DNA from: Pseudorhodoplanes sp.
Lineage (GTDB): Bacteria > Pseudomonadota > Alphaproteobacteria > Rhizobiales > Xanthobacteraceae
Reading direction: 5' to 3'
Length of the DNA stretch: 64,000 nt
Assembly: GCA_032027085.1 (NCBI GenBank)
Contig: JAVSMS010000001.1
Span: forward strand, 4,904,361 to 4,968,360
Shown: positions 24,832-60,208 of the stretch, piece after piece
Position numbering within the stretch: position 1 is the first letter of the stretch
How the letters are laid out: each line of letters opens with the position of its first letter
The notes under the pieces: model-generated
What the model was told of the DNA's origin: nothing
The model's input: the letters and a program-made list of their open reading frames with translations, nothing else
Databases searched by the model: none
Translations under genes and position numbers: made by a program

Positions 24832-24833
24832 CT

Positions 24834-25676
24834 TCACGCCTTCCACCCGAGCGCACGCGAAATCCGCTGCGCTGCGGCCAAAACTTCATTGACCAGCGCG
24901 TCGCTCGGCCGGTCAGGAATGAACTGTGTCGATCCAACGATGGCGATCGATCCGACCAGACGGTTGGTGTGGTCGAAGACCGGCGCCGCGATCGTGTTCA
25001 CGCCGGTCACCGTCTGATTGGGAGCCGTCGCCCAGCCGCGCTTCTTCACCGCACGGACTTCATTTTCCAGCGCCTTCGCATCGGTCAGCGTATGCGGCGT
25101 CCACGCCTTGCGTGGGCGGCCCAGCACCTGTTGCAACAGTTCCGACGGCCCAAATGCGAGCCAGGTCTTTCCATGCGCGCTAGCATGCAGGTCGAAGCGG
25201 GTACCGGGGCGCGTTGCGAATTCGACGATGGTGTGACCGTGCACCAGGTCAAGCACTACCAGCTCGCCATCGATCAGCGCGCACAGCGAGATCGCCTGAT
25301 GTGTCGTGTCGCGCAGGCGCATCAGCTCCTTGCGCGCCACGCCGGCAATCTCAAAATGACTGCGGGCGGATTCACCGAGCACCATCAGCTTCACGCCGAC
25401 AGCGTAACGTCCTGTCACCTCGTCGCGCCGCACGAAACCGTGCCGCGCAAGTCCCTGCAGGTGCCGATACACCGTCGCCTTCGACGCCGAGAAAGTATTG
25501 GCAATCGTCGTCAGCGCAATCGGCTGACCCTGTCCGGCCAGGAATTCGAGGATGCGCAACGCAAGGTCAAGCGTGCCGGTCTCGCTCTTGACCGGTGTTG
25601 CCGCGCGCGCTCGTGGACGCCGCTCGAGACCGCCGGAGGCAGCAAGACCAAGGTTCGGTGCCGTAACTTGTTTCAT
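24834..25676 (-). CDS. IclR family regulator of the hyu-liv operon
   Basis: A 280-residue IclR protein. A winged helix-turn-helix lies at about 35-95 (ANTFSASKATVYRHLQGLARHG) and a ligand-sensing domain follows. It is the first gene of the leftward hydantoinase/Liv operon, with hyuA two bases downstream. A near-perfect palindrome lies immediately before the ATG, so autoregulation is likely. It probably responds to the substrate or an intermediate of the HyuAB pathway (inference). Confidence 0.9.
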   Translation of the reverse strand: MKQVTAPNLGLAASGGLERRPRARAATPVKSETGTLDLALRILEFLAGQGQPIALTTIANTFSASKATVYRHLQGLARHGFVRRDEVTGRYAVGVKLMVLGESARSHFEIAGVARKELMRLRDTTHQAISLCALIDGELVVLDLVHGHTIVEFATRPGTRFDLHASAHGKTWLAFGPSELLQQVLGRPRKAWTPHTLTDAKALENEVRAVKKRGWATAPNQTVTGVNTIAAPVFDHTNRLVGSIAIVGSTQFIPDRPSDALVNEVLAAAQRISRALGWKA

Positions 25677-25878: not shown

Positions 25879-26850
25879 TCAGAAAGAAATATTGGCGGCC
25901 TTGACGATCGGCGACCACTTCTCGATTTCGTCGGCGACAAATTTCTTCAAGTCGGCCGGCGTTCCGCCTGCGCTCTGCACTCCAAGCTTGCTGAACAGAT
26001 CCTTCGCCTTGCTCGTCTTCAAAAAAGCGTTTGCCGCGGCATTGAGCTTTGCGACGACGTCAGGTGGTGTGCCTGCCGGCGCCAGCAGCGCGTACCAGAC
26101 CGACGCTTCGAAACCCGGAAGACCGGACTCAGCAACAGTCGGCACATCGGGCAAACCAGGCCAGCGGCTGGTGCCGGCAATGGCCAGCGCGCGCAACTTT
26201 CCTTCCTTCACGTTGCTGACATAAGGCGCCATCGAATCCATCGCGACATCGATATGTCCGCCCAACAGATCATTGATGATCGCGGCGCTACCGCGATACT
26301 GAATGCCGCCCATCTTCACCTGCGCGCGCTGCTGGAACAATTCGCCGGTGATATGGCCGAGCGTGCCATTGCCGGGATAGCCCGCATTCAGCTTGCCGGG
26401 ATTTGCCTTCAGATAATCGGTCAGCTCCTTCAGCGACTTCGCCGGCACACTCGGATTGGCTGCGATGATGACCGGCGACTTGCCGATCAGCACGATCGGC
26501 TCGAAATCCTTCTGCGGGTCGAAAGTCAGGTTCTTGTACATCAGCTTGTTGGTCGCCGCAGGACCGGTGGTCGCGAACAGGATGGTGTGACCGTCTGGGT
26601 CTGCCTTCGCGACCGACCCGGCGCCGAGATTGCCGCCCGCCCCGCCCTGATTGTCGACAACGACAGGTTTGCCGATCGCGCCCGCGATATCCTCGGCGAC
26701 CGCGCGCGCGAGAATGTCGGAGGTCGTGCCGCTGGTGAAGGGCACGACGAACTTCACCTCGCGCGCGGGCCAAGTCTGCGCATTAGCCTGCGGAGACGTG
26801 AATGCAACGGCGCCGGCGAATGCCAGCCAGACATATCTTAAAGCACCCAT
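25879..26850 (-). CDS. Tripartite tricarboxylate (Bug) binding protein 1
   Basis: A 323-residue exported binding protein of the Bug/TctC family. Two adjacent ATGs precede the gene; the second is preferred because GGGAGG stands five bases before it. A signal peptide covers about residues 1-24 (ending NAQ). Family hallmarks are WPxRxVxFVVPF, the PGGAGGN loop and the C-terminal KWSPIVKAANISF. There are no TctA/TctB membrane genes in the window, so it is an orphan that must use a distant transporter or serve as a sensor. It is the last gene of the DUF6282 operon. Confidence 0.9.
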   Translation of the reverse strand: MGALRYVWLAFAGAVAFTSPQANAQTWPAREVKFVVPFTSGTTSDILARAVAEDIAGAIGKPVVVDNQGGAGGNLGAGSVAKADPDGHTILFATTGPAATNKLMYKNLTFDPQKDFEPIVLIGKSPVIIAANPSVPAKSLKELTDYLKANPGKLNAGYPGNGTLGHITGELFQQRAQVKMGGIQYRGSAAIINDLLGGHIDVAMDSMAPYVSNVKEGKLRALAIAGTSRWPGLPDVPTVAESGLPGFEASVWYALLAPAGTPPDVVAKLNAAANAFLKTSKAKDLFSKLGVQSAGGTPADLKKFVADEIEKWSPIVKAANISF

Positions 26851-26895
26851 CATTTCCTCCCTGGTTGTTGCGCCCGATTCCGGGCGTCTCAACGG

Positions 26896-27945
26896 CTAGC
26901 GTTTCGGAACGTATCGCTTCCACTCGTCCTGCAGTGGCGGAAGCTCGGCGAAGGTTTTGCGAGCGTCGGCAGCCCGGCCGACCAGATCGCATGCGCTTAT
27001 ATTTTTCCGGCCAAGATAGGCTTTGAACTCGGTCACGGCATCCGAAAGAACATCAAAGCCGCGCAGCATGACGGCCGATGCAATCTGCACGGCATGCGCG
27101 CCTGCCAGCATCATGCGCGCGACATCAAGACCCGATTGCGCGCCGTTGATGCCGATCAGCGGCTTGTCGGCGCCCATTCTGGCACGCGAGAGGGCGAGCC
27201 AGTGGCAGGTCAGCGGCAAATTCCAGAAGCCGCCGATGCCAAGACTCGTTCCCAAGGCGGGCTTCAATGTCTCCACGTCCGGGATCAGCCCGAGCAGCCG
27301 CCCGGCCATGATCACAGCACTGCCGCCGCCCTCGAACGAGGCCTGCACCAGATCCGGCACCCGCTCGCTCTGTCCGGTCAGCTTGACCCAGACAGAAAGC
27401 GACACCGCGCCGGAGACCGCGGCAACCATCGCAGTCGCGCGCGCGGGATTAAATTCGGTGGTGACGGCGCCCTTCTTGGCTTCGGTGGCATAGGGCGTTC
27501 CGATATTGAGCTCGAGCGCGCGCAAGCCCGCCTGCTCGACGCGCCGCGCCATCTCAACGGCGCGATCGAGATCGGCGACAATGATGCTGGGAATGGCATA
27601 CGCCTCCTGCTCCTTCGCCTCGCGGTCCAGCGCGACGGCGTCATCCAGCCATTGGTCAAAGGGAATGCGCGTCAGCCCGGAGCGGCTGGCAATGGTGGCG
27701 CTTGCTGGCGCGTCCGGCCCCCAGGGCACCGAGCGCCATTGCTCATCGAACACGGCGTATTCGGCGCGCTCCAATTGTTCGCGCGCGCCTTCCGACTCGT
27801 TGGTCGACTTGAGCACCACCGCGCCGACCCCAGTGTGCAACGCACGGCGGACATTATCCGGATCAATCAAATGCTCCGCCGGTCCGGCGATCACCGGATT
27901 TTTCAGATGCAGGGAGCCGATGCGCGTTTCGAGCCGGGCGGTCAT
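26896..27945 (-). CDS. Dihydroorotate-dehydrogenase-like flavoprotein
   Basis: A 349-residue FMN TIM-barrel enzyme started at the ATG of MTARLETRIGSL. The N-terminal LKNPVIAGPAE and internal LELNIGTPYA, VWVKLTG and GINGAQSGLDVARMMLAGA motifs are those of class 1 dihydroorotate dehydrogenase/PreA relatives. The gene sits between a DUF6282 hydrolase and a Bug protein with gaps of 13 and 45 bp, so a pyrimidine-biosynthesis role is unlikely and a ring- or double-bond-reduction step in a catabolic pathway is more plausible (inference). No Fe-S cluster domain is fused. Confidence 0.82.
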   Translation of the reverse strand: MTARLETRIGSLHLKNPVIAGPAEHLIDPDNVRRALHTGVGAVVLKSTNESEGAREQLERAEYAVFDEQWRSVPWGPDAPASATIASRSGLTRIPFDQWLDDAVALDREAKEQEAYAIPSIIVADLDRAVEMARRVEQAGLRALELNIGTPYATEAKKGAVTTEFNPARATAMVAAVSGAVSLSVWVKLTGQSERVPDLVQASFEGGGSAVIMAGRLLGLIPDVETLKPALGTSLGIGGFWNLPLTCHWLALSRARMGADKPLIGINGAQSGLDVARMMLAGAHAVQIASAVMLRGFDVLSDAVTEFKAYLGRKNISACDLVGRAADARKTFAELPPLQDEWKRYVPKR

Positions 27946-27958
27946 TTTTTGTTTCCGG

Positions 27959-28879
27959 TCACGCCGCGACCGGCAGATCGAGCAGGCCCGCGGCATTGGT
28001 GCTGACCAGCTTGCGAATGTCGGCGGGTGAGAATTGCAGCGCCAGGAGGTGAGCGACGATCTGCCGGAATCCATCGACCGGGCGCGGCGCCTCGGTGAGG
28101 CCGAGATCGGAGCCGAGAATGGTGCGATCGACGCCGGCGACCTCGACCAGATGCACCAAATCGCTCGGCTCGAAATGCTTCACCCGACATTCGAGGAACA
28201 TGCAGATCGAATGTTCGAGATAAGCGCCAAGCGCGACCAGGCCGCGCATGTCCTCGTCGCTGCACCCGACCACATAGGTCGGGTGATTGACCAGCATCTT
28301 CTTGACGCCGCGCCGCTTGGCATCCTCGAAGAGCACAAATAGTTCGCTGACGTGAAGGTGGCCGCCGGCGAGAATGATGTCGGCGGCAGCAATGATGTCG
28401 AGCACCTGCTTGGTCTCGTCGGTCAGTTGCTTGTTGGCGTCGAGCACGGTCAAAGGGGTGGGCTCGAGCATGCGTTGCGCAGTCTTTGGAAAGCTCTTGG
28501 CTCCGGATTCGTTCTGGTAAATGTGGTTCGCCGCCGAGAAGGTCGGCATCCAGACGATCTTGCCGCCAAGCTTGACGCAGTGATCGACCGCATAGGGATT
28601 GACGCCGCCGGTCGCATTGTTCAGCGCGACGCCGGAAAACAGCCGCACGCCAGTCCCGGGGAACAGTTTTTCGAGCACGGCTGCATGCGCCATCCCCGGA
28701 TAATAGTGATCCTTGTAGACGACCGCCGCGAATTTCGCCTCTGCCGCGTCCATCAGCGCGTCGTGATGATCCAGAATGCGCGGCATCACCGACGGACCGC
28801 TGTGACAATGCAGGTCGACGGCGCCCTTAAGAAGATCGGCGACCTCGTCCTGGCGTCCATTGGGGCTTGATGTGATCAT
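27959..28879 (-). CDS. DUF6282 family metal-dependent hydrolase (copy 1)
   Basis: A 306-residue amidohydrolase-like protein of the DUF6282 type. Candidate metal ligands are His24/His26 (DLHCHSGPS), Lys56/His58 (YKDHYYPG), His174/His176 (GGHLHVSE), His199 (NHPTY) and Asp258 (GSDLG). The arrangement is that of a TIM-barrel metallohydrolase or lactonase with a two-metal centre. The chemistry of the family has not, to my knowledge, been established. It is second in a leftward operon after an aldolase fragment and is followed by the DHODH-like and Bug genes. A paralogue is encoded at 58.4-59.3 kb. Confidence 0.85.
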   Translation of the reverse strand: MITSSPNGRQDEVADLLKGAVDLHCHSGPSVMPRILDHHDALMDAAEAKFAAVVYKDHYYPGMAHAAVLEKLFPGTGVRLFSGVALNNATGGVNPYAVDHCVKLGGKIVWMPTFSAANHIYQNESGAKSFPKTAQRMLEPTPLTVLDANKQLTDETKQVLDIIAAADIILAGGHLHVSELFVLFEDAKRRGVKKMLVNHPTYVVGCSDEDMRGLVALGAYLEHSICMFLECRVKHFEPSDLVHLVEVAGVDRTILGSDLGLTEAPRPVDGFRQIVAHLLALQFSPADIRKLVSTNAAGLLDLPVAA

Positions 28880-28895: not shown

Positions 28896-29141
28896 TCAAG
28901 CTGCTGGCGGCTGACGCAGCGGCGCGAAATCCGTCAGAGTCCTGAGCGCGGCCTGTTGCAGGAATCCCTGGTCCGACGAAACGAGAAACGCGCTTGCTCC
29001 GTGCGCTTTGAATGCATTCGCTTCCGCGGCGGAACTGACCATGACGCAGACCGGCTTGCCGGCCGAGCGCGCCGCCTCGATAATTTTCTCCGTCGCCGCC
29101 TGAATGGCGGGCGCGTCGAGGAGGATTCGCTCAGGGCTCAC
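28896..29141 (-). pseudogene. C-terminal remnant of an HpaI-family aldolase
   Basis: An open frame of 81 residues that aligns with only the last 70 or so residues of the HpcH/HpaI aldolase at 51.4 kb: compare AARSAGKPVCVMVSSAAEA and SAFLVSSDQGFLQQAA with AARAANKPICVFVGGQTEA and AFVVASDQSFMRKAA. The N-terminal catalytic part (metal-binding Glu and the Arg/His of DEEHAPFD) is absent, and the sequence upstream is the IclR operator region. The remnant starts at a GTG and is followed 16 bp later by the DUF6282 gene. It is most simply a deletion relic that left the operator and promoter in front of the DUF6282 operon. A functional short protein cannot be excluded. Confidence 0.8.
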
Positions 29142-29225: not shown

Positions 29226-30020
29226 ATGCCGAAAATCACCGGGCCAGCGCAAACGGGCGTTCAGGCGGCCATCCTGATGCTGCGCACGATCGAATATCTG
29301 TCGGAAACAAAACGGCCCATCGGCGTTACCGCGCTCGCGCAGGCGCTCGGAACAACAAAAAGCCGCATCCACCGGCATCTGCGGACGCTGATGCAGCAGG
29401 GCTACGTCGCCCAGGGCGCCGAATCCGAAAAATACGAAATCGGCCCTCGCCTGCTGACGCTTGCCCGCCACATCAATGACAATTTCAACCTCGCCGGTTT
29501 TGTGTCGCCGGCGCTGCAGGAATTGCGTGACAGCCTCGGACATTTCGCCGTCTATTCGCAGGTGGAAGACGCGGGCATGCGCGTTCTGGCCACCGTATCG
29601 GGAACTTCGCCGATCGAGATCGGCGTCAAGCAAGGCTCGCTTCTGCCGTTCCACGCTTCGGCGCAAGGGAAGCTTGCACTCGCCTTCGGGCCCGACGAAA
29701 TCCGCCACCGCACGCTCGGATCAAAACTTGAGAAATTCACGCCGCGCACGATCGTCAAAGCGGCAGCGCTTGATCGCGAAATCGAAATCATCCGGCGCCG
29801 GGGATGGGCGGTGGCTCCGGACGAAGTCGCCGTCGGCCTCAATGCCCTGGCTGCGCCGGTGCTGGATGCAACCGGCCGCCTGGTCGGAGCTGTCGGCATC
29901 GTTGATCTGACGCAATTCATTCCGCCGGAGCCTATGAAAGAGCAAACTACGCAAACGCTTTCCATCGCCGGGCGGGTTTCGAGAATGCTCGGCTATAAGA
30001 ACAGTCACGACGCCACCTAG
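29226..30020 (+). CDS. IclR family regulator divergent from the DUF6282 operon
   Basis: A 264-residue IclR protein started at the ATG of MPKITGPAQ, with GGGGAG five bases before it. HTH at about 15-75 (LAQALGTTKSRIHRHLRTLMQQG), sensor domain after 85. It faces the DUF6282-DHODH-Bug operon across a 19-bp palindrome, and the ribose-type ABC operon lies downstream. It most likely controls the divergent operon and perhaps itself, because the palindrome resembles an IclR operator. Confidence 0.9.
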   Translation: MPKITGPAQTGVQAAILMLRTIEYLSETKRPIGVTALAQALGTTKSRIHRHLRTLMQQGYVAQGAESEKYEIGPRLLTLARHINDNFNLAGFVSPALQELRDSLGHFAVYSQVEDAGMRVLATVSGTSPIEIGVKQGSLLPFHASAQGKLALAFGPDEIRHRTLGSKLEKFTPRTIVKAAALDREIEIIRRRGWAVAPDEVAVGLNALAAPVLDATGRLVGAVGIVDLTQFIPPEPMKEQTTQTLSIAGRVSRMLGYKNSHDAT

Positions 30021-39550: not shown

Positions 39551-39613
39551 CTTGCCAAAACGATAGAATTGCGTCTGATAGCTGTCAATCGTCGCGTTTT
39601 TGCATCCCCCGCA

Positions 39614-44136: not shown

Positions 44137-44146
44137 GTTGTCATTC

Positions 44147-44161
44147 TCCAACATTATTGGA
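44147..44161. promoter_or_regulatory. Inverted repeat TCCAA-N5-TTGGA
   Basis: A 15-bp inverted repeat just upstream of the second SDR start. It differs from the TetR site by spacer and half-site and may be an operator for another regulator. Confidence 0.35.
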
Positions 44162-44192
44162 ACCACTCGATCGCGCGATGCTCGAAAGAGCA

Positions 44193-50126: not shown

Positions 50127-51107
50127 TTACATCGAGATATTCGCCTGCTTCACGACCGGGCCCCACTTCTTCAATTCGGTTGCAATGAAGGCCTTCAGAT
50201 CGGCCGGGGAACCGCCGACGGCCTGGATACTCAGCTTGGCGAGCGCTTCCTGTCCTTTCGGACTCTTCAGGAATGCATTGGTGGCAGCATTGAGCTTGTC
50301 GATGATCTCCTTCGGCGTCCCCGTCGGTGCTGCCAGGGCATACCAAGCGGTGGCCTCAAATCCCTTGAAGCCGGAGTCCTGCACGGTCTTGACGTCCGGC
50401 AGATCGCTCGAGCGTTCGGTGGTTGTGACGGCGAGCGCGCGGATCTTGCCCTCCCGCACCATCGGCACGTAGGACGGCATGAAATCCGCCGCGAGATCGA
50501 CCTGTTCAGCAAGCAGGTCGTTCAACACCAGCGCCGTGCCGCGATAGGGCACGCTCGTCATGCTGATCCCGAGTTCCTTCTGCAGCAGCAGCGCGGTGAT
50601 ATGGCCAAGCGTTCCGTTCCCGGGAACGCCGATATTGAGCTTGCCGGGATTTGCCTTGGCGTAGGCTACGAGCTCCTTGATATCCTTCACCGGAAGCGAC
50701 TTCTTCGCCACGACAATGAGTGGCGACTTTGCGATCAGCACGATCGGTGCGAAAGCCTGCTCGGGGTCGAACGACAGGTTCTTGTACATCAGCTTGTTGT
50801 TCGCGAGCGGCCCCGGCGTGCCGAACAAGATCGTATAGCCATCCGGAGCGGCCTTGGCGACGACACCGGCGCCGACGTTGCCGCCAGCGCCAGTGCGATT
50901 TTCGACGATGAATTGCTGGCCGAACCTCTCGCTGAGATCCTGCGCAAGCGCACGCGCCAAGAGATCGGTGCCCCCGCCGGCGGCAAATGGAAGGACGATG
51001 CTCACGGGCCGCGAGGGCCAAGCATCGGCCCAGGCGGCCGACGGTGCCGCCCAGAGGCCAGCAGCAGCGATGGCAAGCGCGGCTCTTCGAGTAATGCGAG
51101 TTTTCAT
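50127..51107 (-). CDS. Tripartite tricarboxylate (Bug) binding protein 2
   Basis: A 326-residue exported binding protein, similar to Bug protein 1 throughout (C-terminal KWGPVVKQANIS). The signal begins MKTRITRRAALAI, so the twin Arg may also direct Tat export. GGGAGGAC precedes the ATG. No TctAB genes nearby. It is divergent from the HpaI aldolase gene, with an IclR-like palindrome between, and is cotranscribed with MaoC. Confidence 0.9.
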   Translation of the reverse strand: MKTRITRRAALAIAAAGLWAAPSAAWADAWPSRPVSIVLPFAAGGGTDLLARALAQDLSERFGQQFIVENRTGAGGNVGAGVVAKAAPDGYTILFGTPGPLANNKLMYKNLSFDPEQAFAPIVLIAKSPLIVVAKKSLPVKDIKELVAYAKANPGKLNIGVPGNGTLGHITALLLQKELGISMTSVPYRGTALVLNDLLAEQVDLAADFMPSYVPMVREGKIRALAVTTTERSSDLPDVKTVQDSGFKGFEATAWYALAAPTGTPKEIIDKLNAATNAFLKSPKGQEALAKLSIQAVGGSPADLKAFIATELKKWGPVVKQANISM

Positions 51108-51370: not shown

Positions 51371-52165
51371 ATGGCGGCCCCCGTCATGTTCCGCGCTCGG
51401 CTGCTCGCTGGCGAGCAGGTGATCGGCACCTTCATCAAAACGCCGACCATTCATGCGACCGAGATTCTCGGCGCGCTCGGCTTTGATTTCGTCGTGGTCG
51501 ACGAAGAGCACGCGCCGTTTGATCGTCTGGCGACTGACGCGGTGTTGCTTGCCGCGAGGGCCGCCGGCACAGCGGCGCTGGTCCGCGTGCAGAGCGTAGC
51601 GAGCATTCTGTCCGCTCTCGATTGCGGCGCGACTGGAGTGCTGGTGCCGCACGTAGCCACCGCAACCCATGCCCGCGAGGTCGCGGCAGCTTGCCGCTAC
51701 AAGGGCGGGCGCCGCGGCTATTCGGGCTCGCCACGCCACGCCGGCTACGGCGCCACCGGAATGTGGAACACCGTGGAGGCAGCGGACGCCGCCACGACCG
51801 TGATCGCGCAGATCGAGGATCCGGAAGCACTCGACGAGATCGAAGCCATCGCTGCGGTGGATGGCATTGATGGTCTCTTCATCGGCCGCGGCGATCTTTC
51901 CGTTGCGCTCGGGGCGAAATCCTCCGACGCCCCCGAAGTGCGCAGCGCCGTTGAACGAATCGGCAAGGCGGCGCGCGCTGCCAACAAGCCCATCTGCGTA
52001 TTCGTCGGCGGCCAAACCGAGGCGGCATGGCTGCGCGACCAGGGAGCGACCGCGTTCGTGGTCGCCTCCGACCAGAGCTTCATGCGCAAGGCAGCCGCGC
52101 AAGCTCTGGTCGAAATCCGCTCGCTCGGCGCGCCCGCCGAGAATGTTCAAGCCAAGACTGGCTAA
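51371..52165 (+). CDS. HpcH/HpaI aldolase family protein
   Basis: A 264-residue class II aldolase of the HpaI type. The catalytic/metal region is FDFVVVDEEHAPFD, VRVQS and GVLVPHVATA, followed by IEDPEALDEIEAIAAVDGIDGLFIGRGDLS. The family cleaves 4-hydroxy-2-ketoacids to pyruvate and an aldehyde. It lies downstream of a 26-codon ORF and an IclR-like palindrome and 22 bp before a bicupin gene. The leftover piece of a relative is at 28.9 kb. Confidence 0.9.
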   Translation: MAAPVMFRARLLAGEQVIGTFIKTPTIHATEILGALGFDFVVVDEEHAPFDRLATDAVLLAARAAGTAALVRVQSVASILSALDCGATGVLVPHVATATHAREVAAACRYKGGRRGYSGSPRHAGYGATGMWNTVEAADAATTVIAQIEDPEALDEIEAIAAVDGIDGLFIGRGDLSVALGAKSSDAPEVRSAVERIGKAARAANKPICVFVGGQTEAAWLRDQGATAFVVASDQSFMRKAAAQALVEIRSLGAPAENVQAKTG

Positions 52166-52187: not shown

Positions 52188-53036
52188 ATGAACGCGCAGA
52201 TCAGGCCGGCCAGCGCCGGCCGCGCCTATGAAACCCCGCCGCAACTGGCGGACGTCGGCAGCAAGACATGGGTCACTCGCGGCGCCAATTTCGTGGTCGC
52301 CGTATCCGCGGTTGAGCCGGGCGCGGTTCTGAGCCGCACCGATAATCCCGACGAATACATGGTGCTGCTCGGCGGAATTGCCGCCACCATTCGGGCGGGC
52401 GCCGAGACCATCGAGGCAGCGCCGGAGTCTCTCACCATCGTCTCCCCTGGCCCAAGCCAAGTGGTGGCTCAGAGCAAAGGTCATCTGGTTCGCGTGCTAT
52501 CTAACCGCGCTGCGGACCTCCTTGCCAAGGCGGAGAATGCCGCGATCTACGCAGATGGCGCTTCCGATGTCGCGCCGCTGGTCCCCTGGCCTGACCCCGT
52601 CGGCGGTTTCAAGCTGCGCAACTACAAGCCGTTCGATTACGACAAGCCTGACACCAATATGCGGCTGTTCCGCTGCACCAACCTGATGATCAACGTGCTC
52701 ACCAAGCGCACATCGCCGCGCGATGTGAAGAAGCTCAGCCCGCATTCACACGATGATTTCGAACAGGCCTCGCTGCTGCTTGAGGGCGACTATATCCATC
52801 ATCTTCGCTATCCGTGGGTGCCGGACATGTCGCAGTGGCGCCCCGACGAGCACCTGGAGATCGGCAGCCCGTCGGTAACCGTCATCCCGCCCAAGGTCGT
52901 GCATACGAGCCGCAATATCGGCGACAAGCGCTCCTGGCTGATCGATATCTTCGCCCCGCCGCGAGTCGATTTCTCGCGCAAGCCAGGTTTGGTGCTCAAT
53001 GCCGACGAATACCCGATGCCTGCGGAGTTGCAGTGA
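52188..53036 (+). CDS. Bicupin-like protein of unknown function
   Basis: A 282-residue protein with two cupin-like beta-barrels. The first lacks obvious metal ligands. The second has LSPHSHDDFEQASLLLEGDY and VIPPKVVHTSR as a likely metal site (His, His, Glu, His). GGAG precedes the ATG. It follows the aldolase in the same operon and may act on an intermediate as isomerase or dioxygenase. Family not recognised with certainty. Confidence 0.7.
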   Translation: MNAQIRPASAGRAYETPPQLADVGSKTWVTRGANFVVAVSAVEPGAVLSRTDNPDEYMVLLGGIAATIRAGAETIEAAPESLTIVSPGPSQVVAQSKGHLVRVLSNRAADLLAKAENAAIYADGASDVAPLVPWPDPVGGFKLRNYKPFDYDKPDTNMRLFRCTNLMINVLTKRTSPRDVKKLSPHSHDDFEQASLLLEGDYIHHLRYPWVPDMSQWRPDEHLEIGSPSVTVIPPKVVHTSRNIGDKRSWLIDIFAPPRVDFSRKPGLVLNADEYPMPAELQ

Positions 53037-53128: not shown

Positions 53129-54544
53129 TTAGCCGAGGATCGCCTTCACCTCGAGATATTCTTCAAATCCAAAGACGCCGAACTCGCGCCCGTTGCCGGA
53201 TTGCTTGTAGCCGCCGAACGGCAGGCTACGATCGAACGGCGCGCCGTTAAGGTAGACGCGCCCTGCTCGGATGCGGTTGGCGACCCTGCGGGCGCGGTTT
53301 ACATCCTTGGACTGCACGAAGCCGGCCAATCCGAACGGCGTGTCGTTGGCGATGCCGATTGCTTCATCCTCGGTATCATAGGTCATGATGGACAGTACCG
53401 GACCAAAAATCTCCTCGCGTGCAATCCGCATTTGCGGCGTCACATCGCCGAAAACCGTCGGCCGAACATAGTAGCCACGGTTGAACTCTGATGGCCGTCC
53501 CGTTCCGCCGGCCACCACCGCGGCGCCCTCATCGATGCCCGACTGAATCAGATTCTGCACCTTTTCAAACTGCGCCTGGCTCACCAGCGGTCCCATGGTC
53601 GAAGCCGGATCGAGCGGGTCGCCCAGCCGAATAGCGTCGACTGCCTCGCGCGCAGCCGCGAATGCCGGCTCCCGCTGCGTACGCGGGATCAACATGCGCG
53701 TAGGCGACTGGCAGTTCTGGCCGGCGTTGGTGTAACAGGCGTGAACACCCTGGATCACCGCGGCTTTCAGGTCGGCATCCGGCAGGATGATGTTGGCGGA
53801 TTTGCCGCCGAGTTCCTGGGCGACGCGTTTCACCGAATCTGCTGCAAGCTTCGCTACTCTGACGCCGGCCGTCGTCGAGCCGGTGAAGGACACCATGTCG
53901 ATCTCCGGGTGAGCGGCGATCGCCTCGCCGACCGTAGGTCCATCACCATTCACGAGATTGAAGACACCGGCTGGGAGACCGGCATCATGGACGATTTCGG
54001 CAAACAGCATCGTGCTAAGGGGCGCAATCTCGCTCGGCTTCAGGACAACGGTGCAGCCGGTGGCAAGCGCCGGCGCAACTTTTGAAGCAACCTGGTTGAG
54101 CGGCCAATTCCACGGCGTGATTAGTCCGCAGACGCCGATCGGTTCCCGGCGGATGATTCCATTCCCCATGCGCTGCTCGAACTGGTATTGCGCAAGCACG
54201 CGCGCAGCTTCCTCGAAATGAAAGAGCGCAACCGTCGCCTGGCGCTCGGTCGCGAAGGTAATCGGCGCGCCCATTTCTTGAGTCATCGTCCGCGCCAATT
54301 CCGGCAGACGATTTTTGAAGCCCGCGATGATCTTTCGAAGGAACGAAAGGCGGTCTTGAACGCCCGCTTCAGAATATGTCGCGAAAGCGCGGCGAGCGGC
54401 CTTGGCTGCGCGATCCACGTCCTCTCGGGAACCCAAGCTGATCTGCGCGAAGGTGTCTTCCGTCGCAGGATTGACAACTCCCAAGGCTGAGGGCGCGGCC
54501 GGATCCACCCAAGCGCCGTCGATATAGAATTTCTGCGTGTCCAT
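53129..54544 (-). CDS. NAD(P)-dependent aldehyde dehydrogenase
   Basis: A 471-residue aldehyde dehydrogenase. Cofactor-binding PWNWP (144-148), catalytic Glu244 (QELGGKS) and nucleophile Cys278 (AGQNCQS) are present. It is the last gene of the leftward six-gene operon starting with DUF6282. It could oxidise the aldehyde released by the HpaI aldolase (inference). Confidence 0.93.
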   Translation of the reverse strand: MDTQKFYIDGAWVDPAAPSALGVVNPATEDTFAQISLGSREDVDRAAKAARRAFATYSEAGVQDRLSFLRKIIAGFKNRLPELARTMTQEMGAPITFATERQATVALFHFEEAARVLAQYQFEQRMGNGIIRREPIGVCGLITPWNWPLNQVASKVAPALATGCTVVLKPSEIAPLSTMLFAEIVHDAGLPAGVFNLVNGDGPTVGEAIAAHPEIDMVSFTGSTTAGVRVAKLAADSVKRVAQELGGKSANIILPDADLKAAVIQGVHACYTNAGQNCQSPTRMLIPRTQREPAFAAAREAVDAIRLGDPLDPASTMGPLVSQAQFEKVQNLIQSGIDEGAAVVAGGTGRPSEFNRGYYVRPTVFGDVTPQMRIAREEIFGPVLSIMTYDTEDEAIGIANDTPFGLAGFVQSKDVNRARRVANRIRAGRVYLNGAPFDRSLPFGGYKQSGNGREFGVFGFEEYLEVKAILG

Positions 54545-54553
54545 GGTCTCCGC

Positions 54554-55315
54554 CTAAAGGTGTCTGCCCTCGTCTACCGGCACCACAATTCCCGTCGAAC
54601 TGGTGAGGTTGACGATGCAAGCAACCACGGCCCTTGCGACATCGTCTGCCGTGGTGACATGGGCTAGCGGGAATCTTTCGGCGGTTTTCTGCAGCTGTTC
54701 GCGCGTCCGGCCGGGAACGAAATCCGTATCCACGCCGGCCGGTGAGACGGAGAACACGCGGATTTGCGGCGCCAACACCTTCGCGAGCGCGACGGTGAGC
54801 GCGTCGATGCCGGCCTTTGCAGCGACATAGGCCAGGCTGCTGCCCAAACCGGTGCGGGCTGCGATGGATGAAATGTTGACGATGACGGCACCGCTGCCGC
54901 GTTCCAGCAACGGACGAAATGCGCGAATCATGGCGAAAGGCCCACGCAGATTGATGGTCACGGTTCGGTCGAAGATTTCGTCCGTCAGCCCGTCAAGATC
55001 ATTGACAGGCACAGGGGTGGTCGCGCCTCCGCAATTAATCAGCGCATCGAGTCGCCCGTGCATTTTGTCAACAGCCGCCGCAGCCTCGGATATGGAAGCT
55101 GGATCATCGATAGCTACGCGCATGGCGCAATGCCCGGTGCCATGCAGCCCTTTGACCACCTCTTGTGCTTGTGCTGAGCGGCTGTTGTAGCCGACCACCA
55201 CAGCTGACCCCATCGCCGCAAGGCGCGCGGCGGTCGCCTTGCCGATTCCGCTGCTGCCGCCCGTGACAAGCGCAACCTTCGGGGTCGCCAGCGCAGGAAT
55301 GTCGATGGCGTTCAT
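54554..55315 (-). CDS. SDR family oxidoreductase (classical)
   Basis: A 253-residue classical SDR started at the ATG overlapping the ligase stop (ATGA). TGGSSGIGKATA cofactor motif, NCGG, and the Ser/Tyr-x-x-x-Lys triad NISS...YVAAK are present. It most likely acts as a 3-hydroxyacyl-CoA or 3-oxoacyl dehydrogenase in the same pathway as the ligase and MaoC. Confidence 0.9.
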   Translation of the reverse strand: MNAIDIPALATPKVALVTGGSSGIGKATAARLAAMGSAVVVGYNSRSAQAQEVVKGLHGTGHCAMRVAIDDPASISEAAAAVDKMHGRLDALINCGGATTPVPVNDLDGLTDEIFDRTVTINLRGPFAMIRAFRPLLERGSGAVIVNISSIAARTGLGSSLAYVAAKAGIDALTVALAKVLAPQIRVFSVSPAGVDTDFVPGRTREQLQKTAERFPLAHVTTADDVARAVVACIVNLTSSTGIVVPVDEGRHL

Positions 55316-56835
55316 CCACGGTTCTCCCAGTAAGGCCGTCGCAACTCCTGCTTCAGGACCTTGCCGACATTCGACCTTGGCAACGTATCTCGCAATTCTA
55401 CGCCTGACAGGCGCTGCATCTTTCCCAGCTGTGCATTGGTCCACGCGAGGAGCGCGTCCGGATCAATACGTGAATTTTGCCTGGCAACGACCAGTGCGAG
55501 TGGCGTCTCGCCCCATCGTTCGTTGGGTATCGCAATGACAGCAGCATCAGTGACGTCCGGATGCGACAGCAGCTTTTCCTCCAGATCGGCGGCGTAGATG
55601 TTGAACCCGCCAGAGATGATCATGTCCTTCTTGCGGTCGAGCAGGACGAGGAATCCGTCATCATCAAACATTCCGATATCGCCGGTGCGATGGAAGACGA
55701 TGCCCTCTCCGTCGCGCCAATAGAAATCCCGGTTGGCTGCTTCATTGCGGAAGTAGCCAGACATCATCGTTGCCGAGCGCCCGACGATTTCCCCGCGCAT
55801 TCCCGCCGGGAGAAATCGTCCGTCCTCGTCGATGATCCGGATGTCATTTCCCGCCGCCGGCTTCCCGACCGTATGGGCTTTATGCGGAAAGGCGGACACG
55901 TCCAGGATGGACGTACAACCTCCTTCGGTAAGACCATAGATTTCAAAGAAGCGGCCTGGCCACTTTTCGACGGCCGCGCGCTTGACAGCCGCAGACAATG
56001 GTGCGCCGGTACACTGCTTCATCCTGAATGCAGACAGGTCGCGCCTTCCAAAACTCTCCGAGTCCAGAATGCGCCGGTACTGCGCCGGCACCAGCATGGT
56101 GTGCGTCACACGCTGGGCTTCGGCGAGGTCGAGATAGAGTTCGGCGTCGAACTTTGGCACCAGGATGACGCGTCCGCCGTGGAATAACGTGGCAAGCAAC
56201 GGCATCAGCGTCGTGTTGGAATAGAGCGGCGTGGCGAGGAGCATCGTGCTGCCCGCGTCGATTTCGAAGAGGCTTCTGGCGGCCTGCCGGTATCGCATTG
56301 CGTGCGAGTGAACGATGCCCTTGGCGCGCCCGGTCGTTCCCGAACTGTAAATGATGTTGAAGTCGGCCCCCGGCGTGCAAACGCGAGCATCCTTAAGAGG
56401 TGCGTCGCGCAGGAATCTGCGCGGAAGTCCCTCGCCCGGAATGACTCCAAGCACCGGCACATCGGCAACATCGCGCACAAGCTGCTCATTCTCCTGATGT
56501 GCAATGATCAGGTCCGGCTGACAGTCTAAGATCATGCCGGAAAGAGCATCGCGATGGGCCGAGACCGGCAAAGGCACCGCACATCCACCAGCAGCGATGA
56601 TTGCAAGATATGAGATGACAAGCTCGACACTGGCAGTTCCCAAGAGCCCGATGCGGCCACTGCCTTCAGACATCAGTGGGACGAGATTGCCCGCGGTCTC
56701 CAACACTGTCTCTCGAAGCGATTGCCAGTTGAGGCTCGCACTTCCACAGCGCAGCGCTTCATCGCCCGGCCGCTCAAGCGCGTGCGAAAGTATTCGCGTC
56801 AGCAGACCGCCATCATTCTCAGATACAGACATCAT
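55312..56835 (-). CDS. Acyl-CoA synthetase/AMP-binding ligase
   Basis: A 507-residue ANL ligase with IIYSSGTTGRAKGI, GLTEGG, TGDIGMFDDDGF, and the C-terminal catalytic Lys in RSNVGKVLKQE. It activates a carboxylic acid to a CoA thioester. It overlaps the MaoC stop and the SDR start by 4 bp, so the genes are coupled. Confidence 0.9.
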   Translation of the reverse strand: MMSVSENDGGLLTRILSHALERPGDEALRCGSASLNWQSLRETVLETAGNLVPLMSEGSGRIGLLGTASVELVISYLAIIAAGGCAVPLPVSAHRDALSGMILDCQPDLIIAHQENEQLVRDVADVPVLGVIPGEGLPRRFLRDAPLKDARVCTPGADFNIIYSSGTTGRAKGIVHSHAMRYRQAARSLFEIDAGSTMLLATPLYSNTTLMPLLATLFHGGRVILVPKFDAELYLDLAEAQRVTHTMLVPAQYRRILDSESFGRRDLSAFRMKQCTGAPLSAAVKRAAVEKWPGRFFEIYGLTEGGCTSILDVSAFPHKAHTVGKPAAGNDIRIIDEDGRFLPAGMRGEIVGRSATMMSGYFRNEAANRDFYWRDGEGIVFHRTGDIGMFDDDGFLVLLDRKKDMIISGGFNIYAADLEEKLLSHPDVTDAAVIAIPNERWGETPLALVVARQNSRIDPDALLAWTNAQLGKMQRLSGVELRDTLPRSNVGKVLKQELRRPYWENRG

Positions 56836-57290
56836 TCGTCCTCGATCAGAATGATGCTTCTGGCGACTAAAGCCGGCTTGTCGGACCCTTCTATCTCCAT
56901 GGTTGCATCCAATTCGATGCGCGTTCCACTGGCCTGGCGACTGACCTGAACGAGAGACATGCTTAGCCGGATGCGGCTGCCCACCTGGACTGGCGTCAGG
57001 AAGCGGACGCGATCATAACCGTAGTTGAGGCCGCGCCCGCGTCTACGGATTGCGAAGATCCCGCGCTGGAGCCAGGGGATCAATGAGAGGACGTAGAGGC
57101 CGTGCGCAATCGTCTTCCCGCCCGGCATATCGCGCGCGGCACGCCCGGTGTCGACGTGGATCCAGTTGTCGTCGCCCGACAGCCGCGCGAAATCATCAAT
57201 GTGCCGCTGCTCGACAGTGAACCAATCAGACGAGCCTATCGGACGCCCGGCGTGCAGCTGCAAGTCGACAGCGCGCTCGACGGTCAGCAT
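56832..57290 (-). CDS. MaoC-like dehydratase (copy 2)
   Basis: A 152-residue hotdog protein with DFARLSGDDNWIHVD and GGKTIAHGLYVLSLIP, close to the NodN/MaoC enoyl-CoA hydratase group. It overlaps the quinone oxidoreductase end by 7 bp and the ligase by 4 bp. Likely hydrates an enoyl-CoA made by the ligase. Confidence 0.88.
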   Translation of the reverse strand: MLTVERAVDLQLHAGRPIGSSDWFTVEQRHIDDFARLSGDDNWIHVDTGRAARDMPGGKTIAHGLYVLSLIPWLQRGIFAIRRRGRGLNYGYDRVRFLTPVQVGSRIRLSMSLVQVSRQASGTRIELDATMEIEGSDKPALVARSIILIEDE

Positions 57291-58324
57291 TGGGCGGACT
57301 CCGTCCGCTTTGCCGGTTCCGGAACGCTTTGCGCGCGCTGCGGGTCAACCAACAGCACCACCTTCCCGATCTGCTCATTCAGATCGAGTAAATCATGCGC
57401 GTCCCGGACCTGTTCCCACGGAAACAGCGCGTGGATCCTGGTCACGATGCGACCTTGCTCGATGAGCGGCCAAACCTGCTGCACCAGTTCAGACGCAATC
57501 TTTCCCTTGTAGGCTGCCGACCGCGGCCGCAACGTCGAGCCTGTTAGCGTCAGCCGGCGGCGAACGATCGCGCGGATGTTAACTTCCGCCGTCTCGCCGA
57601 GGTGACTTGCAATGAAAACCAGTCGTCCATCGGGCTTGAGAAGGTCAAGCTGTTTTTGGGTGTAATCGCCCGCTTGCGCATCGAGCACGACATCGACGCC
57701 TTTGCCGCCGGTCGCGCGTCTGACTTCGTCCTCCCAGTCACCGCGGTAATCGATCGCGTGATGCGCTCCAGCCTCAAGGCAGACTTGCCGCTTCTGCGCC
57801 GTGCCGGCAGTCGCAACGACAGTGGCGTCGCGCAGTTGACGGGCCATTTGGATACCCGCCAGGCCGACACCGCTGGTTCCGCCCTGTATCAGGATGGATT
57901 CGCCCTGAGCGAGACGTCCGAGCCAGATGATGTTGTTCCAGGCGGTGAAGAAGACTTCTGGAAGCGACGCCGCCTCGGCAAATGTCAGGCCACGCGGGAT
58001 CGGCATGCATTGCAATGCCGGCACGCTGCAAAACTCCGCATAACCGCCGCCATTGACAAGCGCACACACGCTGTCGCCAACTTTCACGCTACTGACGTCC
58101 GGCCCCACCTCTTCGATAATGCCGGCCACGTCGAGGCCCGGAAGTGATGACGCGCCTGGCGGCGGCGGATAGAGGCCACGACGTTGTTGTATGTCCGGCC
58201 GGTTTACACCGGCGGCAAAAACTCTGATCACCACCTCGCCGGGCTTCGCCCGAGGACGCGGCACTTCGATCATCTGCAGCACCTCGGGGCCACCCGGGCG
58301 TGCGATTTCAATCGCGCGCATCAT
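57284..58324 (-). CDS. NADPH:quinone oxidoreductase (zinc-ADH superfamily)
   Basis: A 346-residue MDR oxidoreductase of the PIG3/QOR type without the structural zinc cysteines. The GroES-like part carries AAGVNRPDIQQRRG, and the Rossmann motif is ILIQGGTSGVGLAGIQMA. The start ATG is chosen from a double ATG after GGAGGAG; upstream in-frame extension is poorly supported. Reduces quinones or enones with NADPH. Confidence 0.88.
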   Translation of the reverse strand: MMRAIEIARPGGPEVLQMIEVPRPRAKPGEVVIRVFAAGVNRPDIQQRRGLYPPPPGASSLPGLDVAGIIEEVGPDVSSVKVGDSVCALVNGGGYAEFCSVPALQCMPIPRGLTFAEAASLPEVFFTAWNNIIWLGRLAQGESILIQGGTSGVGLAGIQMARQLRDATVVATAGTAQKRQVCLEAGAHHAIDYRGDWEDEVRRATGGKGVDVVLDAQAGDYTQKQLDLLKPDGRLVFIASHLGETAEVNIRAIVRRRLTLTGSTLRPRSAAYKGKIASELVQQVWPLIEQGRIVTRIHALFPWEQVRDAHDLLDLNEQIGKVVLLVDPQRAQSVPEPAKRTESAQC

Positions 58325-58390
58325 GCTTGCGCCCTCTCCTCCCGCGGACTGCTCACGGTGCATCCGGCCTGTTGCCATTCGGACCGGTTG

Positions 58391-59326
58391 TTAACCCACG
58401 CCCAGACCGACGAGCTTGGCCGGATTGTCACGGACCATAAGCCTTACATCGTCTTCCGAGAAACCAAGCGCCAAGCACATCTTTATCGCCTGCCTCATCC
58501 CTTCAACCGGCGTCGGATTGTCGACCTGCCCCAGATCGGACCCGATCGACGAATGCGCCACACCGGCTGCGAGAATGTGCTCCTTCAACTCCTGCGGAGA
58601 AAAGACATTGAAACGTGAGTCAACGTAAAGGCAGGCCGACTGCTCGATCAGCGCCCCGAATTCCGCCATTTCCTTGATGTCTTCATAGGTGAAATGGAGG
58701 CCATACATGGGATGGTTGACGAGGAGCCGCTTCACGCCGCGCTTCTTGGCCTCCGTAAAGAGCTTCCAGATTTCCCACACATGCAAATGACCCGACGACA
58801 GGATGGCGTCGAATTCTGCAACAGAGTCCAGAATTTCCTTCACGACGTCGAGGACCTCGCCGTACGCGTCCACGACGGTGATGGCAGGTGATGGCTTCAG
58901 CTTCACATTGGATGCAAGCCGGGTTTTGCGGCTGGAGCTGCGGATATGATTGGCCGACTGTGCTGTCGGCATCCAGATCAGCTTTGCACCCTGCTTGAGC
59001 TGAGCATCGACGACAAAAGGATTGAGACCGCCTGTGCTGTTGTTGAGGACGAGACCACTATACATCGCAACGTTGTGATGCCCCAGCACACGCTCCATGA
59101 GCGGGATGAAGGGCGCCACGGAATAGTGATGGTCCTTGAACAGAAGGCCCCTCATTCCGGCCGCTGCCGCCTCTTCGACCGCCTGGAAGTGATCGACCTG
59201 CCGCGGCATGGTCGAGGGCCCGGAATGAACATGCAGGTCCAGCGCGCCTTGCAGCAGCCTGTTTGCGGTCGCGTCATCGACCTGTGCGATCAGAGCGCGC
59301 GCCTCTTCCCGATAGCCCGAAGCCAT
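58391..59326 (-). CDS. DUF6282 family metal-dependent hydrolase (copy 2)
   Basis: A 311-residue paralogue of the gene at 28 kb. The start ATG (MASGYREEA) is preceded by GGGAGGAAG. Ligand candidates align one-to-one with copy 1: His32/His34 (DLHVHSGPS), Lys64/His66 (FKDHHYS), His180/His182 (SGHLHVWE), His205 (NHPMY) and Asp264 (GSDLG). It begins a leftward six-gene operon with a quinone oxidoreductase, MaoC, ligase, SDR and aldehyde dehydrogenase. An IclR gene is divergent. Function unknown; hydrolysis of a lactone or cyclic ester is one guess. Confidence 0.85.
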   Translation of the reverse strand: MASGYREEARALIAQVDDATANRLLQGALDLHVHSGPSTMPRQVDHFQAVEEAAAAGMRGLLFKDHHYSVAPFIPLMERVLGHHNVAMYSGLVLNNSTGGLNPFVVDAQLKQGAKLIWMPTAQSANHIRSSSRKTRLASNVKLKPSPAITVVDAYGEVLDVVKEILDSVAEFDAILSSGHLHVWEIWKLFTEAKKRGVKRLLVNHPMYGLHFTYEDIKEMAEFGALIEQSACLYVDSRFNVFSPQELKEHILAAGVAHSSIGSDLGQVDNPTPVEGMRQAIKMCLALGFSEDDVRLMVRDNPAKLVGLGVG

Positions 59327-59398: not shown

Positions 59399-59417
59399 CA
59401 TTCCGCGGTGCGGAATG
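59399..59417. promoter_or_regulatory. IclR-type operator (CATTCCGC-N3-GCGGAATG)
   Basis: A perfect 19-bp inverted repeat with arms CATTCCGC and GCGGAATG around GGT, between the divergent DUF6282 operon and iclR. The TTCCGC-N3-GCGGAA layout is familiar from IclR-family operators. It overlaps the first possible GTG of the iclR gene and so argues for the start at 59429. Confidence 0.7.
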
Positions 59418-59428
59418 CAGAGGATGCC

Positions 59429-60208
59429 GTGGGAATACGATCAATCGAGCGAGCGATGAAGGTCTTGCAGGAAATGAACCTGCAGCCCTACTCGTCGATT
59501 GCTCGCCTCCATGCCCGTACCGGCCTGCCCAAAGCGACGCTGGTTCGCATTCTCAAGACACTGGAGAATCTGGGCTACGTCGAGAACGACCCACGCCTCG
59601 GCGGGTATCAGGTGAGCGCGCTGGTGAGCTCACTGAGTTCGGGCTTCCACAAGGAGCCCATGGTGGTGGAGGCGGGCCGTCCGTGGGCGGTCGCAGTCAC
59701 GCGCAAATACCAATGGCCCGTAGCGATCGCTTTGCTCGATCGGGATGCGGTCGTCGTACGCTTCAGCACCGTGCCCGACAGCTCGATGTCGCCCTTCCAC
59801 AAGACCGTCAACATGCGCCTGCCTTTGCTGACGCGCGGCATGGGACTCGCCTATTTGGCGTTCACGCCAAAGGAGGAGTTCGATCTGATCGTCGAGATGC
59901 TGCGCCGGTCCGACGATCCGGAAGACAGCCTCGCGCAACAGAAGGACCGGGTGAATCGGCTGGTCCATCAGGTTCGACGGCAGGGCTATGCATCTCGTGC
60001 CAGACATGTCGAGCCGAAGAACTCGAACACGATTGCCGTGCCAATCATGAACGAGGCAGGGCGCGTGGTGGCAAGCTTTGGCCTGACCTATTTCACAGCC
60101 GCGCTCTCCGAGGCCGAAGCCTGTGAGCGCTACGTACCGGTGCTGAAGTCGACTTCAGCCGAAATAACTCAGGATCTCGCCAGGATCACAAAAACCTCAT
60201 TCGGATAG
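59429..60208 (+). CDS. IclR family regulator divergent from the DUF6282 copy-2 operon
   Basis: A 259-residue IclR protein. The start is the GTG at 59429, with AGAGG before it, because the GTG at 59408 lies inside the operator palindrome. N-terminal GIRSIERAMKVLQEM and HTH LHARTGLPKATLVRILKTLENLG are typical. It most likely controls the DUF6282-QOR-MaoC-ligase-SDR-ALDH operon. A mutated partial copy of its 3' end is found at 62.55-62.9 kb. Confidence 0.88.
   Translation: MGIRSIERAMKVLQEMNLQPYSSIARLHARTGLPKATLVRILKTLENLGYVENDPRLGGYQVSALVSSLSSGFHKEPMVVEAGRPWAVAVTRKYQWPVAIALLDRDAVVVRFSTVPDSSMSPFHKTVNMRLPLLTRGMGLAYLAFTPKEEFDLIVEMLRRSDDPEDSLAQQKDRVNRLVHQVRRQGYASRARHVEPKNSNTIAVPIMNEAGRVVASFGLTYFTAALSEAEACERYVPVLKSTSAEITQDLARITKTSFG

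Follow-up and report, generated by a model that had tools for sequence, protein, structure and literature searches.

The window analyzed here is the final 64 kb (64,000 nucleotides) of the single 4.97-Mb contig of a Pseudorhodoplanes sp. genome (JAVSMS010000001.1), and it contains two genes that encode proteins of the Pfam family DUF6282. Our analysis suggests, with a probability that we put at about 0.48, that DUF6282 is a hydrolytic, ring-opening enzyme that would act just before a pyruvate-releasing C-C cleavage in the catabolism of organic, probably aromatic-derived, acids. The main reason for this placement is that HpaI-type aldolases, CHA aldolases and FAH-family proteins substitute for one another beside DUF6282 genes. 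These enzymes have in common that pyruvate or a pyruvate-like product is freed from a 2-oxo acid by C-C cleavage (FAH-family members perform other reactions too), and DUF6282 is therefore placed directly upstream of such a step. The first-pass annotation of this DNA had suggested that DUF6282 hydrolyzes a lactone or ester whose product is split by an aldolase, and a hydrolase that feeds an aldolase fits both the predicted amidohydrolase fold and the way in which CHA aldolase or FAH takes the place of HpaI. The two genes are:

27959..28879, minus strand: DUF6282 copy 1, 306 aa; PF19799 E 1.5e-73, 247.1 bits
58391..59326, minus strand: DUF6282 copy 2, 311 aa; PF19799 E 3.1e-69, 233.1 bits

Both copies match PF19799 across the whole profile and lie far above its curated cut-off of 26.8 bits, which makes them members of DUF6282; the start of copy 2 was taken at 59326, within an open reading frame (ORF) listed from 59401. 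A search of the whole 4.97-Mb genome found no third DUF6282 gene. The family itself is large: one query retrieved 3758 proteins at E <= 0.001 among 7998 candidates scored.

Genomic neighborhoods of the family

Two sets of loci were used to discover which genes accompany DUF6282. Seventy loci, picked by likeness to copy 1, came from scanning named genomes with this protein. A genome sample, drawn evenly from the order and the phylum in two draws that share some genomes, gave 69 fetched stretches; in this sample DUF6282 was present at E <= 0.001 in 13/397 genomes of the phylum and 51/397 of the order (own genome included, overlapping draws). With the window, these 140 sources held 151 DUF6282 matches, and after 7 identical and 3 short proteins were dropped, 141 usable proteins remained in 7 groups. 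A few contigs of the sample also occur in the first set, and two of its stretches (L178, L179) had no match with the A1 profile, which was made from 53 sequences that we picked from the 70 loci and 120 listed proteins. The core subfamily was defined by 200 bits with the A1 profile, a threshold set after the scores had been seen. Gene positions were taken from six-frame profile searches, not from curated annotation; labels such as RraA and PIG-L mean a match to the profiles of our own clusters, verified with Pfam or NCBIfam on representatives, and the FAH family was searched for with one query. Unless another distance is given, a neighbor is a gene within 6 kb of DUF6282.

Outside the window there are 113 core loci, and in 86 of them a neighbor is a pyruvate-releasing enzyme that cleaves a C-C bond, namely HpaI (71), CHA aldolase (10) or the FAH family (5), and two kinds never occur together. 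The exchange extends to a second enzyme in the 24 Bacillota loci: the 11 with HpaI all carry a cupin as well (bicupin in 4, small cupin in 7), the 10 with an RraA-type protein all carry a PIG-L protein, and the pairs are never mixed; neither pair was found in the other 3 loci, two of which are short or cut. The RraA protein of one such locus (L042) has CHA aldolase as its best solved relative (3NOJ, E 6e-64) and passes the NCBIfam CHA aldolase model, and the PIG-L protein, which was compared for this locus alone, appears closest to GalB, 4-oxalomesaconate hydratase (5CGZ, E 2e-44; next relative 5.5e-9). A DUF1932-type dehydrogenase is a neighbor in 9/10 PIG-L/RraA loci. The third kind of exchange is found in the clade of copy 2, where five other members have HpaI with no FAH-family match and four without HpaI have an FAH-family match (its identity was verified on the L180 query, PF01557).

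The partners are over-represented in both sets. In the genome sample, with 43 core loci, HpaI is a neighbor in 29, bicupin in 22 (24 including small cupin), IclR in 30, Bug in 11, the TRAP protein DctP in 7, short-chain dehydrogenase (SDR) in 20, aldehyde dehydrogenase (ALDH) in 12, a quinone-oxidoreductase-like reductase (QOR) in 12 and a flavodoxin-like protein in 6; the 40 proteobacterial core loci of the scan set have HpaI in 31, bicupin in 29, IclR in 31, Bug in 13 and DctP in 14. HpaI lies less than 300 bp away on the same strand in 25/83 proteobacterial core loci (15 in the scan set, 10 in the genome sample). As an internal control we used another DUF6282 subfamily from the same sample (n=25), in which HpaI was found once, bicupin never, IclR once and Bug once (Fisher tests: HpaI p 1.3e-7, bicupin p 5.4e-6). 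This other subfamily (L150-L170) is accompanied instead by an ABC transporter ATPase in 17/25 loci, and in some genomes two of its genes lie side by side (L165, L166, L177). The window genome has about five HpaI-family genes (6 matches, one of them weak and below the cut-off), so HpaI would be expected within 6 kb of ~1.4% of random places; the figure for Bug, with 31 genes assumed, is ~8.6%. On these counts HpaI and the cupin are firm partners of DUF6282, and IclR is too. The first-pass annotation had proposed, from the context of the two window loci, an uncharacterized catabolic system with Bug, HpaI and IclR: the pooled proteobacterial core bears this out for HpaI (60/83) and IclR (61/83), and Bug proved less constant (24/83). 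It is a common but exchangeable carrier partner, one of several, since TRAP, TTT and MFS carriers stand in for it at other loci. Absent from that annotation were the cupin, the reductases (QOR, DHO_dh-like, flavodoxin-like) and the location of some DUF6282 relatives in aromatic meta-cleavage clusters.

We opened 14 of the 46 plasmid records with a DUF6282 match; HpaI is at the locus in 8, six of these with bicupin and two with small cupin, and a DHO_dh-like gene comes directly before DUF6282 in four (L181, L182, L190, L191), overlapping it by a few bases in L182. One locus (L183) has a CoA transferase pair and another (L193) has MaoC, AMP-binding and SDR genes in the order found in the window; others, such as L187 and L194, have none of these partners.

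Predicted fold and conserved residues

The AlphaFold2 model of copy 1 (pLDDT 93.6) predicts a distorted TIM barrel of the amidohydrolase superfamily. The closest folds among the 50 matches listed are renal (M19) dipeptidases, dihydroorotases and phosphotriesterase (PTE)-like lactonases, with 10-17% identity over aligned residues and with the same conserved His/Asp layout as DUF6282. In this superfamily HxH lies on strand 1, a His on each of strands 5 and 6 and an Asp on strand 8; H24, H26, H174, H199 and D258 of DUF6282 are located on predicted strands 1, 5, 6 and 8 in that arrangement. These five, together with K56, H58 and E179 among others, are invariant across the 53 aligned members. All five motifs that the first-pass annotation had taken as candidate metal ligands are present in the same order in both copies (HxH, KDH, the second HxH as GHLH, NHP and SDLG). 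Not all of the 53 members keep the D of KDH or the second H of GHLH. Sequence comparison led to no convincing solved relative: with copy 1 and the A1 profile as queries, the PDB gave either repeat-protein artefacts or weak hits, over part of the sequence, to dipeptidases and to a phosphotriesterase homologue.

Aromatic context in distant relatives

The L042 locus contains in a row a Rieske dioxygenase pair, GntR, catechol 2,3-dioxygenase (C23O), DUF6282, the GalB-like protein, CHA aldolase and formaldehyde dehydrogenase; C23O passes its equivalog cut-off and formaldehyde dehydrogenase is above its cut-off. The C23O family is a neighbor in 4/10 PIG-L/RraA loci and lies farther away in L064. On a plasmid of Thermus oshimai JL-2 the annotated order is C23O, GntR, DUF6282 (WP_015065217.1), PIG-L, CHA aldolase and an NAD(P)-dependent oxidoreductase; genes for 4-hydroxybenzoate 3-monooxygenase, for a Rieske dioxygenase and for a member of the carboxymuconolactone decarboxylase family are found within ~20 kb. 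A haloarchaeal member is located beside a BenE-type transporter, a PaaI thioesterase and an AMP-binding protein.

LigI-like amidohydrolases were also seen at DUF6282 loci (L022, L029, L036, L037, L040, L068). A profile of five LigI-like proteins (the A3 alignment) matches 2ffi at 2e-55 and LigI 4d8l at 4e-34, and both types of hydrolase can therefore share a neighborhood.

Proposed pathway

From the fold prediction, the conserved residues, the gene association and the partner swaps we infer the reaction steps, their order and the kind of substrate. The substrate would be taken up by a Bug/TTT, TRAP or MFS carrier and, depending on the locus, may be reduced or activated by a QOR, DHO_dh-like or flavodoxin-like reductase. 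DUF6282 would add water to a lactone-like (2-pyrone type) intermediate to give a 2-oxo-3-enoic (or enol) acid, which a second metalloenzyme (bicupin, small cupin or GalB-type PIG-L protein) would hydrate or isomerize to a 4-hydroxy-2-oxo acid. HpaI, or elsewhere CHA aldolase or an FAH-family hydrolase, would then free pyruvate, and the other fragment may be taken by ALDH, SDR, BKACE or a CoA transferase. IclR or GntR would sense the inducer. A broader proposal, whose odds we place somewhat short of even, is that DUF6282 is a new class of ring-opening hydrolase at the head of an undescribed lower-pathway module. Unrelated folds would in this module have repeatedly taken the place of the hydratase (bicupin, small cupin, GalB type) and of the pyruvate-releasing enzyme (HpaI, CHA aldolase, FAH), across Alphaproteobacteria, Bacillota and Thermus; haloarchaea have members of the family as well.

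Several observations weigh against a ring-opening hydrolase of this kind. No HpaI, CHA aldolase or FAH was found within 6 kb in 27/113 core loci, including all 6 acidobacterial or deltaproteobacterial loci, which also lack the cupin and IclR. The C23O profile has no match in the 83 proteobacterial core loci, a Rieske dioxygenase (one query) is within 8 kb in only 1/40 and 1/43 of them, and no ring-cleaving enzyme was identified in the two loci of the window. BKACE is frequent in the scan set (27/40) and rare in the genome sample (3/43). Eight of 10 genomes with the GalB type have a PF04909 match (one only below the cut-off), so a LigI-like enzyme may operate there; no match was found in the other 2 or in the Thermus plasmid record, which makes no general argument. 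The LigB-type dioxygenase (PF02900) has a match in 9/10 genomes searched, and its absence is therefore unusable as an argument. In the predicted structure, W110 occupies the place on strand 4 of the bridging Lys/Glu, a residue of some superfamily subtypes only, and the invariant K56/H58 pair is on strand 2 instead. DUF6282 has no significant profile relation to the LigI lactonase family (hhalign of A1 with A3, probability 0.8%), and membership in that family was rejected. In T. oshimai JL-2, according to PMC10815724, which cites work on this strain, protocatechuate is decarboxylated to catechol, the ring of which is cleaved; the substrate there therefore need not be 2-pyrone-4,6-dicarboxylate, and the Thermus cluster was dropped as support for a protocatechuate 4,5-route.

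Alternative explanations

Two other reactions fit almost as well as ring-opening hydrolysis, because the amidohydrolase superfamily holds all three. The first, which is unlikely but the strongest of the alternatives, is that DUF6282 hydrolyzes a C-C bond, as a retro-Claisen or meta-cleavage-product hydrolase would, and so opens a reduced ring or splits a ring-cleavage product. LigY is an amidohydrolase-superfamily meta-cleavage hydrolase; the literature searched gave nothing on LigY together with amidohydrolase and meta-cleavage. Dihydrophloroglucinol cyclohydrolase, a member of another family, offers an analogy, and a reductase (QOR, flavodoxin-like or DHO_dh-like) is a neighbor in 15/40 and 19/43 core loci, with exactly one kind in 14 and 18 of these. 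The BKACE proteins of two type-A loci (L005, L008) pass NF053538, 3,5-dioxohexanoate:acetyl-CoA transferase (558.6 and 569.6 bits over 430), a reaction that comes after ring opening in phloroglucinol degradation as described in PMC10470551. The type-B BKACE proteins (L022, L029), however, fail this model, and partners of the hydratase and aldolase types would be needed only if the product were a dienoate. A phloroglucinol-like triacetate route, suggested by NF053538, was demoted because 40/43 sampled core loci lack BKACE and none was found in the window, and it is retained only as a form of C-C hydrolysis.

The second is a decarboxylase of ring-cleavage products, similar to ACMSD or gamma-resorcylate decarboxylase, both of which have the amidohydrolase fold; we rank it next and also consider it improbable. 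Dipeptidases, dihydroorotases and lactonases score equal or higher in the fold comparison, so that fold alone is not decisive, and from what is generally known of their families the substrates of CHA aldolase and GalB retain the extra carboxyl group.

Quite improbable is a sugar-acid module, in which DUF6282 would be an aldonolactonase or similar, the cupin KdgF-like and HpaI an aldolase of 2-keto-3-deoxy sugar acids. The window HpaI is indeed best with 2-dehydro-3-deoxyglucarate aldolase (148.9/393 bits, far below the cut-off) and with 1dxe, the bicupin profile reaches KdgF 5fq0 at a mere E 0.12, and the small TRAP permease of L018 is weakly like YiaM; the companions elsewhere, however, are of aromatic type (C23O, GalB-like protein, CHA aldolase, PIG3-type quinone reductase, FAH family). 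Finally, the two copies could be unrelated orphans that share their context by coincidence, since the genome has many Bug genes (33 PF03401 matches, of which three are fragments) and many of the IclR type (27 helix-turn-helix matches). This is very improbable: HpaI and bicupin turn up next to DUF6282 in distant organisms too, and scarcely next to the other subfamily, and the HpaI remnant at copy 1 occupies the place of an intact gene in a sister locus. The survey refutes coincidence for HpaI and the cupin; for Bug alone, coincidence can still be argued.

Comparison with known systems

Lower catabolic pathways that combine an amidohydrolase-fold enzyme with a hydratase and a pyruvate aldolase are known. 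The protocatechuate 4,5-cleavage/gallate lower pathway (LigI - LigJ or GalB - LigK/GalC) has the same order of hydrolase, hydratase and pyruvate-releasing aldolase as we propose, and the DUF6282 relatives in Bacillota and Thermus have a GalB-like second and a CHA-aldolase-like third enzyme. Unlike that pathway, DUF6282 would stand first instead of LigI, and in the window the cupin and HpaI would replace the hydratase and the aldolase. The 4-hydroxyphenylacetate pathway (HpaD-HpaE-HpaF-HpaG-HpaH-HpaI) likewise ends with an HpaI-type aldolase, and in part of the copy 2 clade HpaI is replaced by an FAH-family protein that is weakly HpaG-like, below the cut-off; that pathway has no counterpart of DUF6282, and the window HpaI is below the HpaI equivalog cut-off. 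Phloroglucinol degradation (PGR-DPGC-TfD-TAL), as far as the accessible part of PMC10470551 describes it, combines in succession ring reduction, hydrolytic ring opening and BKACE-family cleavage, to which the two type-A DUF6282 loci with a BKACE passing the 3,5-dioxohexanoate model may be compared; HpaI or a cupin is not mentioned in that part.

The literature searched has no mention of DUF6282 or PF19799, nor was a description found there of DUF6282 in first place or of the cupin-HpaI version. Our results assign to a family of thousands a place in a pathway, a predicted fold and a few candidate substrates. The lower pathways that break down aromatic and lactone compounds determine which organisms can use lignin-derived and pollutant carbon, and an unrecognized hydrolase, if true, would explain annotation gaps such as the two genomes that have C23O, GalB-like and CHA-aldolase genes and no PF04909 match.

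The copy 2 module

The genes around copy 2 read as one 10-kb module at 50.1-60.2 kb, and they are arranged as follows:

50127..51107, minus strand: orphan Bug (TctC) binding protein; PF03401 E 6.8e-77
51371..52165, plus strand: intact HpaI-type aldolase; PF03328 E 1.2e-29; EEHAP45, VRV71, QIED147 and GRGDL172 kept
52188..53036, plus strand: bicupin; second cupin with a His-x-His...Glu...His metal-type motif
53129..54544, minus strand: aldehyde dehydrogenase; PF00171 E 1.9e-157
54554..55312 (ORF from 55444), minus strand: short-chain dehydrogenase; PF00106 E 2.1e-42
55312..56835, minus strand: AMP-binding acyl-CoA ligase; PF00501 E 2.2e-61
56832..57290, minus strand: MaoC-like hydratase; PF01575 E 5.9e-18
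57284..58378, minus strand: quinone-oxidoreductase-like reductase, PIG3 subfamily; TIGR02824 414.5 bits, cut-off 296.8
58391..59326, minus strand: DUF6282 copy 2, as above
59408..60208, plus strand: IclR regulator divergent from copy 2; PF09339 E 2.8e-11; NF007342 258.1 bits, cut-off 251

This module contains a candidate for every role of the proposed pathway. The HpaI protein scores 103.6 bits with PF03328 against a cut-off of 25, and its EEHAP, VRV, QIED and GRGDL stretches align with GarL 1dxe, which points to the HpcH/HpaI aldolase family; we take these stretches to hold the catalytic His and Arg and the metal Glu and Asp. It misses the equivalog cut-offs for HpaI (121.4/368.8 bits) and GarL (146/406.75 bits). 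The bicupin has no Pfam or NCBIfam match. Its gene is 5.4 kb from copy 2, and HpaI, at 6.2 kb, is just beyond the limit used in the survey. QOR is a neighbor of DUF6282 in 8/9 other members of the copy 2 clade. The PIG3-type reductase, acyl-CoA ligase, MaoC, SDR and ALDH suggest processing of the second fragment, or of the substrate, in the form of an acid or CoA ester.

The copy 1 locus

Copy 1 has an orphan Bug gene and a DHO_dh-like flavoprotein gene downstream and a divergent IclR gene upstream, with the remnant of an HpaI gene between copy 1 and IclR:

25879..26892, minus strand: orphan Bug (TctC) binding protein; PF03401 E 2.9e-69
26896..27945, minus strand: DHO_dh-like flavoprotein adjoining copy 1; PF01180 E 5.2e-11 (start picked by us; ORF from 28074)
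28914..29117, minus strand: HpaI aldolase gene remnant, ~last 66 residues; tblastn best 59% over 66 aa, E 8e-23
29226..30020, plus strand: IclR regulator divergent from copy 1; IclR_C and HTH_IclR; best NCBIfam PcaR/PcaU/PobR, below cut-off (ORF open from 28860; ATG at 29226 picked by us)

The remnant was matched by tblastn with 41/57 HpaI proteins of other loci (42 alignments); it corresponds to residues 186-255 of the intact HpaI of the window, and its frame closes with a stop at 28896-28898. It lacks the stretches EEHAP45, VRV71, QIED147 and GRGDL172, which align with GarL and presumably hold the aldolase active site, and should therefore not be an active aldolase, as judged from its sequence. 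In L112, the sister of copy 1 in the tree, an intact HpaI gene lies in this place, between a divergent IclR gene upstream and DUF6282 downstream. The copy 1 locus thus reads as a DUF6282 module with a decayed aldolase gene, so that copy 1 would need either the HpaI of the copy 2 module or a different route. Homologs of the DHO_dh-like gene adjoin DUF6282 in L130, L134, L181, L182, L190 and L191.

The resemblance between the two loci that the first-pass annotation had described is confirmed. The Bug genes are 1.1 kb (copy 1) and 7.3 kb (copy 2) away from DUF6282, and their products are ~57% identical; HpaI or its remnant is near each copy, the remnant adjoining copy 1. Each copy also has a divergent IclR gene, although the IclR proteins share only ~24% identity and are not counterparts. 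The DUF6282 copies share 43% identity over 290 residues and belong to two well-separated clades of the DUF6282 tree; they are therefore not recent duplicates, and a recent duplication of the two loci was rejected on these grounds and on the dissimilar IclR proteins. Other genomes have two or three DUF6282 genes inside 8-17 kb (G012:C13, G225:C4).

Other genes of the window were also noted. Hydantoinase/oxoprolinase A and B genes and an IclR gene (21203-24846, minus strand) lie ~1 kb beyond the Bug gene of copy 1, and HyuA and HyuB are near members of the other DUF6282 subfamily in L154 and L160. A glycolate-oxidase-like FAD oxidase is encoded at 34584-36014 (plus strand), and its homologs are directly downstream of DUF6282 in L032, L033 and L071. 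The window contains a second paralogous pair, of epimerase-like proteins (37319-38353, plus strand, and 43039-44196, minus strand; 56% identical), accompanied by TetR-like regulators (39569-40258 and 45648-46379, both plus strand; 42% identical), with NMT1-type ABC genes and a DHDPS-like protein between the pairs.
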